From positions 6,963 to 70,962 of the forward strand of contig CAJNBV010000009.1 of NCBI GenBank assembly GCA_905221095.1: a stretch of DNA of 64,000 nt. The letters run 5' to 3'. Of this stretch, positions 58,277-64,000 are shown one piece after another. The notes beneath the pieces were generated by a model. That model saw only the letters and a list, made by a program, of their open reading frames with translations. It made no database searches and was not told the DNA's origin. This stretch comes from a bacterium. GTDB taxonomy: Bacteria > Bacillota > Bacilli > Lactobacillales > Streptococcaceae. How positions within the stretch are numbered: position 1 is the first letter of the stretch; every line of letters begins with the position of its first letter. A program made the translations under genes and the position numbers.

Positions 58277-59716
58277 ATGTATTTAGGAGATTTTATGGAA
58301 AAGGCTGAATCTGGCCAATTTTCAATCCTTTCCTTTCTCTTACAAGAGTCTGAGACAACCGTCAAGGCTGTAATGGAGGAAACAGGATTTTCAAAAGCAA
58401 CCCTAACCAAATATGTCACCCTGCTCAATGACAAGGCTTTGGACAGTGGTTTAGAGCTGAACATCTCCTTAGAAGATGAAAATCTGAGTCTGTCAATCGG
58501 TGCAGCTACCAAGGGGAGAGATATCCGTAGCCTGTTTTTGGAGAATGCTGTTAAATATCAGATTCTTGTTTATCTTCTTTACCACCAACAGTTTTTGGCC
58601 CATCAGCTGGCTCAAGAATTGATGATTAGTGAGGCTACGCTTGGTCGCCACTTAGCTAGTCTAAATCAGATTTTGTCAGAATTTGACTTATCCATCCAAA
58701 ATGGACGGTGGCGAGGTCCAGAACATCAAATTCGCTATTTCTATTTCTGTCTTTTCCGCAAGGTTTGGTCCAGTCAGGAGTGGGAAGGTCACATGCAGAA
58801 ACCAGAGAGAAAACAGGAGATTGCTACTTTAGAAGAAATCTGCGGTGCAAGTTTGTCTTCGGGTCAGAAATTGGACCTGGTTCTCTGGGCTCACATCAGT
58901 CAACAACGTCTCCGGGTCAATGCCTGTCAGTTTCAAGTCATAGAAGAAAAAATGCGAGGGTATTTTGACAATATTTTCTACCTTCGTTTGCTTAGAAAGG
59001 CTCCGTCCTTTTTTGCTGGGCAACACCTTCCTCTAGGAACTGAGGATGGTGAGATGATGATATTCTTCTCTTTTCTTCTATCTCATCGCATTCTTCCTCT
59101 TCATACTATGGAGTATATCCTTGGTTTTGGAGGGCAGTTGGCAGATTTACTGACGCAATTGATACAAGAAATGAAGAAGGAGGAGTTGCTGGGTGATTAT
59201 ACAGAGGACCATGTCACCTATGAACTTAGTCAGCTTTGTGCTCAAATCTACCTATACAAGGGTTATATTTTACAGGATCACTACAGATACCAGACAGAGA
59301 ATCGTCATCCTTATTTGCTGATGGAACATGATTTTAAAGAGACAGCAGAAGAGATTTTTCATGCTCTACCCGCCTTTCAGCAGGGGACGGATTTGGATAA
59401 GAAAATTCTCTGGGAATGGCTCCAGTTGATAGAATATATGGCTGAAAATGGTGGTCAGCATATGCGAATTGGTCTGGATTTGACATCTGGTTTTCTTGTT
59501 TTTTCAAGGATGGCAGCCATTTTGAAACGGTATTTGGAATACAACCGTTTTATTACCATTGAAGCCTATGATTGTACTCGGCATTATGATTTGCTGGTTA
59601 CCAATAACCCGATTCATAAGAAGGAACAGACACCAGTCTATTATTTAAAAAATGATTTGGACATGGAAGATTTGGAGATGATTAGAAAGCAGCTCTATCA
59701 GACACCATATAAATAG
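58277..59716 (+). CDS. Mga/RofA-like transcriptional regulator
   Basis: 479 residues. Two N-terminal helix-turn-helix regions (about 15-50, [23 protein letters not shown], and 90-125, [18 protein letters not shown]), then PRD-like and a C-terminal EIIB-like part. The size and layout fit the Mga/AtxA class. In pneumococci a similar gene lies beside hslO and the glycerol genes. In this window the gene is followed not by glpK but by an accessory nuclease and a surface gene, so it might control either; that is inference. Confidence 0.85.
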
Positions 59717-59961: not shown

Positions 59962-59988
59962 ATGTGCTATAATGAAAGGAGAAGAAAT

Positions 59989-60876
59989 ATGACTGTACGT
60001 CATCCGGGCATCAGCCCGACCAACGATTTGGTTGCTAAGAAAATTTTTAGCAATCCAGAAATCACTTGTCAATTTATTCGCGATATGTTGGACTTGCCAG
60101 CCAAAAATGTAACCATTTTGGAGGGAAGTAATATTCATGTTTTGCCTTCCCTACCGTACTCGGCGCAGGATTTCTATACCAGTATAGACGTTTTAGCTGA
60201 ACTAGATAATGGAACTCAAGTTATCATTGAGATTCAGGTGCATCATCAGAATTTTTTCATCAATCGTTTGTGGGCTTACCTGTGTAGTCAGGTCAATCAA
60301 AATCTAGAAAAAATTCGCCAGCAAGAAGGGAACACTCATCAGAGTTACAAGCATATCGCACCTGTTTACGCTATCGCAATTGTGGATAGTAATTATTTCT
60401 CAGATGACTTAGCTTTTCACAGTTTTAGCATGTGCGAGGATACGACAGGTGAGGTTTTAACCATCACAAACAATGGACAAGAAAACCATCTAGTCAAGAT
60501 GGCGTTCTTGGAACTAAAGAAATACAGAGAAACCAGCAAAGATAAGGTTCGCAAGCCTTGGTTGGAGTTTTTTGGGAATAAACCTTTTACCCAAGAACCC
60601 GAGCGAGCCATCAGTCAGGCGGACCAACTGCTGGACTATAAAAGCTGGTCCGAGGAGGACAGGAAAATGTTTAGTCAACTACGTATGCGCGAAGAACAGG
60701 CATTGTTGGCACAGGACTATGCCTTGGAAACTGCTAGGGCGGAAGGTATCGAACAAGGTCTAGAACGTGGGAAAATTTTTACCTTTCTAGATTTAGTACG
60801 CCAACATGTTCTAACTTCCGAATTTGCGAGTGAGCAATTGGGTATGTCAGTCGCTGAGTTTGAGGCGCTGTTGTAA
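59989..60876 (+). CDS. Rpn family PD-(D/E)XK nuclease/putative transposase
   Basis: 295 residues from ATG 59989 (MTVRHPGISPTNDLVAKKIF); the ATG at 59962 overlaps the promoter and is rejected. The nuclease core is DVLAELDNGTQVIIEIQVHHQ (near residues 65-86), with Asp and E-I-Q as the PD-(D/E)XK elements. The family (RpnA-C) promotes RecA-independent recombination in E. coli and some members act in phage defence. C-terminal coil of charged repeats ends with LGMSVAEFEALL. Own promoter and strong terminator, so it is a self-contained cassette. Confidence 0.88.
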   Translation: MTVRHPGISPTNDLVAKKIFSNPEITCQFIRDMLDLPAKNVTILEGSNIHVLPSLPYSAQDFYTSIDVLAELDNGTQVIIEIQVHHQNFFINRLWAYLCSQVNQNLEKIRQQEGNTHQSYKHIAPVYAIAIVDSNYFSDDLAFHSFSMCEDTTGEVLTITNNGQENHLVKMAFLELKKYRETSKDKVRKPWLEFFGNKPFTQEPERAISQADQLLDYKSWSEEDRKMFSQLRMREEQALLAQDYALETARAEGIEQGLERGKIFTFLDLVRQHVLTSEFASEQLGMSVAEFEALL

Positions 60877-60891
60877 TTAATTAAAAAAATG

Positions 60892-60932
60892 ACAGATTTT
60901 TCCTTCATACAAAAGGAGAAATCTGTTTTTTT
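60892..60932 (+). terminator. Terminator of the Rpn-family gene
   Basis: ACAGATTTtTCCTT and AAGGAgAAATCTGT pair around CATACAA, followed by a seven-T run. It is 15 bp past the stop. Confidence 0.92.
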
Positions 60933-60996
60933 ACAATGGTTAGCCACAGTCTAGAAAATGAATTTTCCCTTTTATAATCCTCTAGCATACCATCCA

Positions 60997-61087
60997 GGGA
61001 GCAGGCGATATGCTCTTCCAAAACACGTCAACCGCGCGATAGGCTTGCGCCTATCCTTAGTAAGAAAAATACAAAGCTCCGCTCCCA
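60997..61087. other. GC-richer block with hairpin upstream of the surface gene
   Basis: The block is bounded by GGGAGC (60998-61003) and GCTCCC (61081-61086), inverted copies. Inside is a perfect 7-bp hairpin GATAGGC-TTGC-GCCTATC (61038-61055). The sequence AACACGTCAACCGCG inside loosely recalls a BOX-A core. It is less AT-rich than its surroundings. It could be a decayed repeat element; the identity is open. Confidence 0.5.
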
Positions 61088-61220
61088 TTATTCAAAAAAT
61101 AGAATCTTAATATTAAAAATGTAAGGAGAAAAAGAAATTTTCAAAACAATTTTCATAAAAACTTTGATAAAACAAATAAAATTACGAACAAAAACGTAAC
61201 AAAAGTTTAATATGAAACGC

Positions 61221-61250
61221 TTGACAAGGATTTAGGGGGGGGGGTATAAT
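61221..61250 (+). promoter_or_regulatory. Surface-protein promoter with ten-G spacer
   Basis: TTGACA (61221-61226) and TATAAT (61245-61250), both exact consensus, are 18 bp apart. Ten of the 18 spacer bases are a G run (61235-61244). Transcription should begin about 61257. The message reads to the start at 61305 with AGAGGTG (61293-61299) as binding site. Length change of the G run would change promoter strength. Confidence 0.9.
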
Positions 61251-61304
61251 TACGGTAAGAGTGTTCTACATTATGCACTACAAATATAAAAAAGAGGTGT
61301 CCAA

Positions 61305-64000
61305 ATGGATAAGAAAAGAATGATATTGGCGAGCTTAGCAAGTGCGGCAGTCTTAGGAGCAGGTTTTACTACGGTTCAACCGTTAGTTGTAAAAGCTGAC
61401 GAAAATGCTGCTAAACCAGCAACGCCAAAAGTGATTCAAGATGCTGAAGCTGATGCTAAGAAGGCTGAAGAAAAAGTTACTGAAGCTCAAGCAAAAGTAG
61501 AAGCTAAAACAACAGATGCAACTGCTGCTGCGGCTAAACTAGAAGCAGAGAAAAAAGAAGATGCTGATGCTAAAGCAGCAAAAGCAGAAGCTGAAGCAGC
61601 TAAAACTAAAGCTGACGAAGCTAAGAAAACTGCTGACGGTGAATTAACTGTAGCTAAAGAAGCAGCTAAACAAGCAGACGCTAAAGCTAAAGAAGAAGCT
61701 AAAAAAGCAGAAGATAAAGCTAAGGAAGATGCTGCTAAAAAAGAAGCTCTTAAAGGTGCTTTAGAAGATCTTGAAAAAAATGCAGAAGCTGCAATCAATG
61801 CTAATAATAAAATTTTAGACAAAGATAAAGCTATCAAGGAAGTTAAAGATTTTATTGGGAAAGAAGCTATATTAGCTGCAATTGAAGCTGGAGATATAAC
61901 AGTAGATGATGCTATTAGTAATTTACCTAATGAAGAAGATGGAAAAGCTGATGAAGCTTTGAAAAAAGAAGATAAAGCCAACAAAGGTAATAAAGATTAC
62001 AAAAAATTTGAAAATCCTACAAACGGACAAAAGGATGATCTTTCTACTACTAATCCTGAACTAAAATCTCAACTTGATGAAGCTGAAAAAGCTGATGCTG
62101 CTCGTCCAAAATCAGAAAAACTTCAAGACAAAGCAGATCAAATAGAAGATCAACTTGATAATGTAGAAAAACAATATGACGAAGCTAAGAAAGTTTCTGA
62201 TGAAAAAGCTGCTGTTTTAGTCAAAAAAGAAAAAGCTCTTAAAGAAGCTAAAGAAGCTGCTGATATTGCAGAAAAATACAACCTTAAAGATGAAATTGTT
62301 AAACCATTAAAAAATGTTGTAACAGAAATCGAAAAAGATCGTGACGAAGCTAATTCTGAATTTGACAAAGCTAATGAAGTTACTGTAGATTATGCAGAAC
62401 AAGGTAAAGAATTAGAAGCAGAATACAATGATACTGTTGCTGCTGTGAAAGCTGCTAAGGAAGAAGAAGCTAAGAATCCTAAACCAGCAGAAAAACCTGT
62501 TGAAAAACCAAAAGTAAAAACAGAAGCTGAAAAAGCTGCAGAAGCAAAAGCCGAAGCTGATAAAAAAGTAGCAGCTGCAGAAGCTAAAGTCGCAGAAGCT
62601 GATGCAAAGGTTAACGAAACAACTAAAGCTCTTGAGGAAGCTACAACTAAAGCTACTAAAGAAGAAGCGGATGTTCAACCTGCTGAAGATGCAAAAACTG
62701 CAGCAGACAAAGCTAAAGCTGAAGCAGAAGATGAATTAGCTAAAGCTAAAGAAGCAGCAGTAACAGCTAAAGCTAAAGTTGAAGAGCTTAAAAAAGATGA
62801 AGCAGATAGTTTGGCTGGTCTTAAATATGCTTTAGAAAAAATGGAAGCTGATGCTATCGAAAAAATCAACAAAGACGATAAAATCACTGACAAAGATGCA
62901 GCTATTGACAAAGCTAAAGCTGCAATCGGTAAAGAAGATCTATTAAAAGCTATCGAAAATGGTGAAATTTCAGCTTCTGAAGCTGCCAGAGATTTAGATG
63001 ATCAAGCTGCAACTGCTGAAGCTAATAAAAACCAAGATCCTCAAGCTGATAACATTGGAGCAACAACTCCAACTATCAAAGATGGAGCTAAAGTTTCTGA
63101 AGCAGATAAAAAAGCATTTGCTGAAGCAGACAAGAAAGCAGTAGATGAAGAAGCTGCTCGCCCAGCATCAGAAAAAATTCAAGATAGAGTAGATCAATTA
63201 CTAAAAGAAATCAACTACTTAACAGCAATCGCTGATAAAGATAAAGCTGCAGCTGAAGTTCTGTTAGAAAAATTCAATCACGCTAAAGAAGTATTACTAG
63301 AAGCTGGACAAGCTGAAAGAGCAGCAGAAGAAGCTAATTCTAATCCTGAAGTTCTTGAAGCATTGAAGAAAGTTGTTTATAATCTAGAACTGGATCGTGA
63401 CACTGCGAAACAAGAACTAGCTAAAATTCTAGTGCCATTGGAAGCTTACACAGAACAAATCAACAAGCTAACTGACGAGTACAATCAAACTCTTAAAGAT
63501 CTAGAAGCAGCTAAAGCAGCAGAGAAGAAAGTAGATGCTTTAAAAGTAGAAATTAAAGATTTAGAAGCAGAGCTTGCTAAAGACAAAGACAATGAGGAAA
63601 TTAGCGATAAATTAAATGCAATGCGTTCTGCATTAGCAAGAGCTGAAAAAGATCTTAAAGAAAATCCGAATGCATTAGTATATGCAGTTTTACTTCCAAA
63701 AGTAGATGCTCTGCCAACTGCATCACAAGCGTTAAAAGCAGAAATTAACAAGCTTAAAGAAGAAAAAGAAAAAACAACTGATGATAGCCAAAAAGCTGAA
63801 TTAGAGAAAGAAATTAAAGAAAAAGAAGCTCTTTTAGCAGAAGTTGAAAAAGCTGAAGCAACACCAGCACCAGGTAGTGAAACACCAGCACCAGGCACTG
63901 AAACACCAGCACCAAATAAACCAGCTGAAGAAACACCAGCACCAAATAAACCAGCTGAAGAAACACCAGCACCAAATAAACCAGCTGAAGAAACACCAGC
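61305..64000 (+). CDS. Large helical surface protein, PspA/PspC-like, 5' 898 codons (runs off the window)
   Basis: ATG 61305 after AGAGGTG; no stop before the window end. Signal peptide [23 protein letters not shown], ending at about VKA (residue 31), similar to PspA rather than to YSIRK proteins such as CbpA. The mature part is nearly all Ala, Lys, Glu and Asp in coiled-coil form. Two related units of about 235 residues (149-385 and 503-739) each contain a GKE(A/D)(I/L)L element and an AARPxSEKxQD motif, the latter 352 residues apart. A proline-rich TPAP repeat begins at about 850. Anchor type (choline-binding or LPXTG) is outside the window. Family by general features; exact homologue not recognised. 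Confidence 0.9.
63900..64000 (+). repeat. 30-bp tandem repeats encoding [10 protein letters not shown]
   Basis: Three identical 30-bp units (63900-63929, 63930-63959, 63960-63989) and the start of a fourth. Each encodes [10 protein letters not shown]. Just before, two 21-bp variants encode TPAPGSE and TPAPGTE. Such proline repeats span the cell wall in streptococcal surface proteins and change copy number between strains. The array goes on beyond the window. Confidence 0.95.

Follow-up and report, generated by a model that had tools for sequence, protein, structure and literature searches.

A poly-G tract in the promoter spacer of a streptococcal surface-protein gene: a probable slippage-driven switch with many relatives

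Does a run of ten G residues between the two boxes of a streptococcal promoter serve to switch the surface-protein gene behind it? The run lies within a stretch of 64,000 bases, which was analysed at its full length and is referred to here as the window. The -35 hexamer TTGACA (61221..61226, + strand) and the -10 hexamer TATAAT (61245..61250, +) are separated by an 18-base spacer (61227..61244, +) that consists of AGGATTTA and then the G tract (61235..61244, +), the presumed slippage site, which abuts the -10 box and the length of which varies in homologous promoters. The sequence-only reading that drew attention to the site had described perfect boxes and an 18-bp spacer with ten G, all of which is confirmed at 61221-61250. 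This is the only site in 60800-61400 to match the promoter pattern at 12 of 12 positions, among three promoter-like sites where 1.7 are expected by shuffling, and it is followed by a ribosome-binding-like site GAGGTG (61294..61299, +). Both boxes are recognisable and the homopolymer lies wholly between them, as in the spacer-tract promoters of the porA and tp0126 type. The run had also been called an extreme feature, which holds in that it is the sole G or C run of at least eight bases in the window, but the run alone is just moderately unlikely, because its three overlapping G8/C8 matches (shuffle mean 0.21) were equalled in 3 of 100 shuffles of the window. What is non-random about the tract is its placement beside the -10 box.

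We consider it very likely that the site, a sigma-70-type promoter with a slippage-prone poly-G spacer, is an expression switch of the surface-protein gene, because in relatives this promoter recurs with tracts that are not all of one length; we infer the cause by slippage, the reversibility within a clone and the dependence of expression on length. Strand slippage during replication would add G residues to the tract or remove them, the number of G would set the distance between the -35 and -10 boxes and through it the transcription of the gene, and a clone would come to be a mix of cells producing different amounts of the surface protein. Change of the G number by slippage appears supported by the comparison described below and by the precedent of the C8 tract in the Streptococcus pyogenes mga gene, while the setting of transcription by spacer length is suggested by precedent, namely that of tp0126, porA and fetA. 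Since its spacer is 18 bases long, the window promoter probably works or is at an intermediate level.

The gene behind the promoter (61305..64000, +) begins with an ATG at 61305 and remains open for 898 amino acids to the end of the window, which cuts its 3′ end. The encoded protein has a signal-peptide-like start, as judged by eye and by a crude rule, a charged Ala/Glu/Lys-rich body and a proline-rich stretch. No Pfam family was found for it, and the NCBIfam models gave a weak match to HpsJ and a partial match to PspA, and nothing else. A protein search returned at least 251 homologues at E 1e-20 or better; among the best 120 of these, P0001 is 86% identical over 99% of the query. Both P0001 and P0039 end in LPNTG, and P0061, with 45% identity, bears the source name SIALI-17 repeat-containing surface protein. 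The exposed surface product that had been proposed thus agrees with the signal-like start and with the predicted LPNTG anchor of P0001. The proposal of a PspA-like product fits the first 93 residues, where the PspA model (NF033930) scores 35.2 bits over residues 1-93 only against a curated cut-off of 850, the gene being 3′-truncated by the window; it does not fit the remainder, as the close homologues are LPXTG-anchored. C-terminal choline-binding repeats are a feature of PspA; the window stops short of the corresponding part of the gene. Because the homologues end in LPNTG and the PspA match is partial, the gene product is most likely a sortase-anchored surface protein rather than a PspA.

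Upstream of the promoter, a terminator-like hairpin found by sequence scan (60891..60927, +) separates the promoter from an Rpn-family nuclease/transposase-like gene (59962..60876, +), and a regulator gene of the AcpB/EbpR/MafR type lies two genes upstream of the surface gene (58277-59716), both genes having been identified by profile searches. The regulator adjoins hslO, and in the window the Rpn-family gene and then the surface gene come next. The Rpn-family gene is absent here in six relatives that are readable across the place, and the pairing of regulator and hslO is kept in six relatives (L274, L276-L280) that have no surface gene there. Since the regulator in these relatives is followed instead by a gene that we take, from its start, to be glycerol kinase-like, both the Rpn-family gene and the surface gene look like insertions beside the regulator. 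In the species genome G149 one contig ends with the regulator and the start of an Rpn-family gene, and a different contig has the surface gene next to the end of an Rpn-family gene, a layout consistent with the order in the window, though not proof of it. Identity of the locus with that of pneumococcal pspC was ruled out by its neighbourhood, a MafR-type regulator beside hslO.

The AcpB/EbpR/MafR family includes regulators of surface genes, and the presence of such a gene at this distance raises the alternative that the tract varies, yet transcription is set mainly by a regulator of this kind, slippage being of minor effect. We regard this as unlikely: the regulator is not dedicated to the surface gene, because the six relatives keep it beside hslO without that gene, and the promoter boxes are both perfect already, even if in Treponema pallidum the tprL gene is described as having a poly-G length without clear relation to expression (PMC7864442).

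A search of 284 Streptococcus species genomes with a 231-base query reaching from the promoter to the signal peptide gave matches in 33, many of which span the signal peptide only or the promoter only. In eleven species genomes besides the window the promoter aligned across the tract together with a related gene start, and the tracts number eight G in three, nine in six, ten in one and twelve in one. The -10 box is TATAAT in G149 (G8, spacer 16) and in G274 (G12), and TATACT in G182 (G10), G199, G142, G294, G298, G200 and the C3 locus of G260 (all G9), and G259 and G261 (both G8). The flanks are close in all of these promoters except that of G274, where the sequence further upstream differs. 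The spacer measures 18 bases in the window, 16 in the closest homologous promoter and 17-20 in ten others. An invariant ten-G tract had been named beforehand as the observation that would speak against switching; in this comparison, which is between species and not within one, the homologues span 8 to 12 G.

Similarity to the window-encoded protein extends along most of its length in just two genomes, at 76% across 751 aligned residues in G149 and at 67% across 743 in G182, and the other nine genes behind homologous promoters match it mainly at the start or in part. The G274 gene (L180) scores 216 bits with the PspA model, under the cut-off of 850, and because this gene, nearer to PspA, follows a homologous G12 promoter, a comparable case does exist in the PspA-like family, for which the sequence-only reading knew of none. 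Similar promoter cores with G11 precede different sequence in G154 and G082, similarity to the window is limited to the promoter in G269 and G150, and in G001 and G032 genes related over their start have another promoter, without the tract. A relatives search with a 621-base query (59 genomes) reached the gene and none of the homologous promoters. G260 contains a further homologous promoter (L301) in which substitutions interrupt the G tract and the -10 box is TAGAAT; its spacer is still 18 bases long, and it is possibly a naturally fixed form of the promoter.

Tract lengths were further compared in 40 promoter pairs, not independent of one another, within eight groups having the same 5′ arm, and the G number is unequal in 28 of them. 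Nine pairs, from one group that shares the promoter core alone, have no alignable flanks, and eight of these are unequal; among pairs with alignable flanks the proportion is 20/31, while for A/T runs of five bases or longer in these flanks 8 of 104 comparisons are unequal (8/108 before the nine pairs were dropped). Two pairs from different species genomes differ in the tract with zero substitutions in about 371 flanking bases (371 and 372 for the two pairs), namely L247 and L248 with G9 and G8, and L164 and L170 with G10 and G8. Some of the tract-length differences could be homopolymer assembly errors. Tract length is thus polymorphic between species among related genomes with conserved flanks, as in the known spacer-tract promoters.

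Such differences might also accompany a fixed tuning element, in which the tract serves to fix an uncommon spacer geometry or as a regulator site, its length drifting slowly and neutrally between species. Counting the window, 41 Streptococcus sites have a perfect -35 box; these centre on spacers of 18-20 and cluster within 17-20 with no even scatter (13:1, 15:3, 16:1, 17:7, 18:6, 19:12, 20:8, 21:2, 22:1), and the homologous tracts mostly have 8-10 G, most differing by one, as such an element would have it, but slow drift would hardly give two allele pairs that are unequal in the tract only over 371-372 bases. Moreover, the tract is retained while the flanking bases and the -10 type vary among promoter groups. 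We therefore hold a fixed element to be quite improbable and prefer the slippage-driven switch.

The pattern TTGACA-N-G7+-N-TATAAT occurs at 26 places in 24 of the 284 Streptococcus species genomes and is absent in its perfect form from the other 260, while the same pattern read backwards has 0 matches in the 284. As a test free of promoter-pattern bias, all G8 tracts with six A/T bases directly behind them were collected from these genomes, which gave 127 places in 77 of the genomes. The hexamer is TATAAT in 34 of the 127 and TAAAAT in 26, and the other 19 arrangements of the letters of TATAAT total 8. In the control, for which C8 tracts with six A/T bases behind them were taken (100 places in 62/284 genomes), TATAAT occurs 0 times, TAAAAT 11 times and TTAAAT 28 times. 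By Fisher's test with related genomes counted singly, the difference between G8 and C8 has p 3e-10 for TATAAT and a weak p = 0.07 for TAAAAT. Among 54 sites taken by the -10 hexamer alone (34/34 with TATAAT and 20/26 with TAAAAT), a perfect TTGACA stands at a spacer of 13-22 in 37. A chance homopolymer or a sequencing or assembly artefact is hardly credible, for although 3 in 100 shuffles reach the match count of the window, eleven further species genomes have a G tract in the corresponding position, and across the 284 genomes such tracts are biased in strand and position, the backwards pattern being without matches. The window site is, as far as these patterns tell, one of many such promoters and not an isolated oddity.

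A hexamer other than TATAAT or TAAAAT follows the tract at 67 sites, 24 of which were examined. At four of these (L191, L192, L193 and L196) the -10 box is shifted or a near match, and they were entered in the promoter table; L194 and L195, where the -10 box does not abut the tract, gave no table row. In the 20 remaining other-hexamer loci TTGACA was found at promoter distance from 0 of 21 G8 tracts, which rules out that all streptococcal poly-G tracts are promoter spacers. A second class of tracts of eight or more G (L281-L291, L294, L295) lies, as judged by eye, in the 3′ arm of a terminator-like hairpin that has a T run behind it. None of the eight other-hexamer loci tested, seven of them of this hairpin-arm class, was named by Rfam.

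With the window included, 59 Streptococcus sites were tabulated, related sites being counted singly, and an ORF lies behind 58 of them, with none at L176; the ORF choice and the signal-peptide rule are crude rules of our own and the LPXTG motif is a loose one (LPXTG-like, within the last 60 residues). The loose motif is present in 25 of 47 complete downstream products, one of which (FPLTG at L163) is probably a false match, compared with 7 of the 233 other ORFs of these loci, and a signal-like start in 37/58 against 78/233. A Pfam search with the 58 proteins, cut at 700 residues, found YSIRK signals in 9; SpaA pilin-type domains are present in 8, and 6 have Gram-positive anchors. The capsule gene cpsA stands behind G9 with a spacer of 18 at L177 (G232), above the NCBIfam cut-off, a Cps4B-like gene just under its cut-off lies 374 bases behind a G8 site at L159 (G066), and galE follows a poly-G site at L188. 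By these predictions, sortase-anchored and secreted proteins are over-represented among the products of the genes behind poly-G sites, and pilus and capsule genes are included.

Two further gene groups share promoter-like cores. PhoH-like genes of three species (L165, L185, L200) have a common core with G9, G9 and G13, in which the -35 box is not TTGACA and the gene start is about 270 bases downstream. In four species (L204, L211, L212, L213) a core common to these loci, with a -10 box TAAAAT and G10, G10, G11 and G8, precedes an unnamed protein of 277 amino acids in three and of 173 in L211; the L204 protein has no Pfam match and no NCBIfam match.

A cross-phylum scan for TTGACA-N-G7-TATAAT in one genome per species gave at least 119 stretches (loci L038-L156), two of which are Streptococcus genomes counted before. 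Among the matches listed, the hosts are mostly uncultured Clostridia and Bacilli, with Saccharibacteria, Spirochaetes, Streptobacillus, Helicobacter and others. The 126 sites among these matches have spacers of 13:1, 14:2, 15:15, 16:20, 17:7, 18:30, 19:36, 20:11 and 21:4, with maxima at 16 and at 18-19 on either side of a trough at 17 (7/126); the most frequent tract has nine G (60/126). As to the trough, assemblies may often have captured a weaker state, or else the optimal distance may be moved by a spacer rich in G. Of the 117 sites that have an ORF, 85 are followed by a signal-like start, compared with 186 among the 566 other ORFs, again among the matches listed. In IMG/VR only two contigs (L260, L261) have the pattern, and the ORFs behind them have hydrophobic N termini.

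We think it fairly likely that poly-G spacer promoters form a widespread uncatalogued class, which would comprise the genus-wide Streptococcus set in front of surface adhesins, pili and capsule genes as well as TTGACA-N-G9-TATAAT in front of exported proteins in Clostridia, Bacilli, Saccharibacteria and Spirochaetes; slippage in promoter spacers would thus be a common way for Gram-positive and gut bacteria to vary their surface, rather than chiefly a speciality of Neisseria. For specialists, the surprise would lie in how broad the class is. If switching is confirmed, variation between the cells of a clone would have to be reckoned with for a number of sortase-anchored proteins, for some pili and for the operon of at least one capsule, with a bearing on adhesion studies and on the interpretation of single-genome surveys, and the G count in a read would be a simple genetic marker of the state of a streptococcal surface protein. 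With the recurrence in other phyla, the frequency of spacer slippage could be tested in existing deep-read metagenomes.

A literature search by titles and abstract openings found no published account of poly-G spacer promoters in Streptococcus; repeats of group B streptococci were reportedly treated by Janulczyk (2010), and porA by van der Ende (1995). Promoters with a spacer tract are an established kind in Neisseria and Treponema, while the streptococcal repeat and inversion switches found in print are of other sorts. In S. pyogenes, one-base changes in a T tract between the divergent genes R28 and Spy1337 are reported to alter the R28 transcript (PMC7098570). This tract and that of the group B bca gene resemble the window site as homopolymers upstream of a repetitive LPXTG protein (PMC7098570), and differ in being T tracts in a regulatory region, whereas the window has a G tract inside the spacer. 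Slippage at the 8-C tract of S. pyogenes mga, described as shown to switch the M protein (PMC10330708), is likewise a case of a G/C homopolymer in a Streptococcus with a surface protein affected, but the tract lies in the coding region of the activator and acts by frameshift. The pil1 pilus of S. gallolyticus also shows repeat-length variation of a streptococcal surface structure, there by GCAGA pentamers in a leader peptide that act through attenuation (PMC3894217), and for S. zooepidemicus an invertible promoter is described (PMC2654543). Outside the genus, G-tract slippage is reported to control sortase-dependent pili in Bifidobacterium breve (PMC9187656), which is similar in tract and type of product, although the tracts studied lie in coding sequence; the same authors also mention G tracts in promoter spacers, at that point without detail (PMC9187656).

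The closest likeness is to the spacer-tract promoters themselves. In T. pallidum, the tp0126 promoter likewise has its poly-G within the spacer, and transcription is reported to be best at 17 bases (PMC7864442); this is a spirochaete in which expression was measured, whereas the window site is known from its sequence. The sequence-only reading predicted that nine G, hence a spacer of 17, would make the window promoter stronger, yet the Streptococcus sites centre on 18-20, which hints that the optimum may be longer where the spacer is rich in G. The Neisseria parallels drawn by the sequence-only reading stand in part. That to nadA fails, since its tract is far upstream and alters the spacing of a repressor (PMC2791445), and on opc the papers disagree, the tract being placed in the spacer by one account (PMC2791445) and over the -35 box by another (PMC7864442). 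The parallels to porA and fetA hold: their homopolymers lie wholly within the -35/-10 spacer of a surface-protein promoter, as in the window (PMC2791445), with the difference that they serve Gram-negative outer-membrane proteins and the window promoter a Gram-positive LPXTG-type protein.
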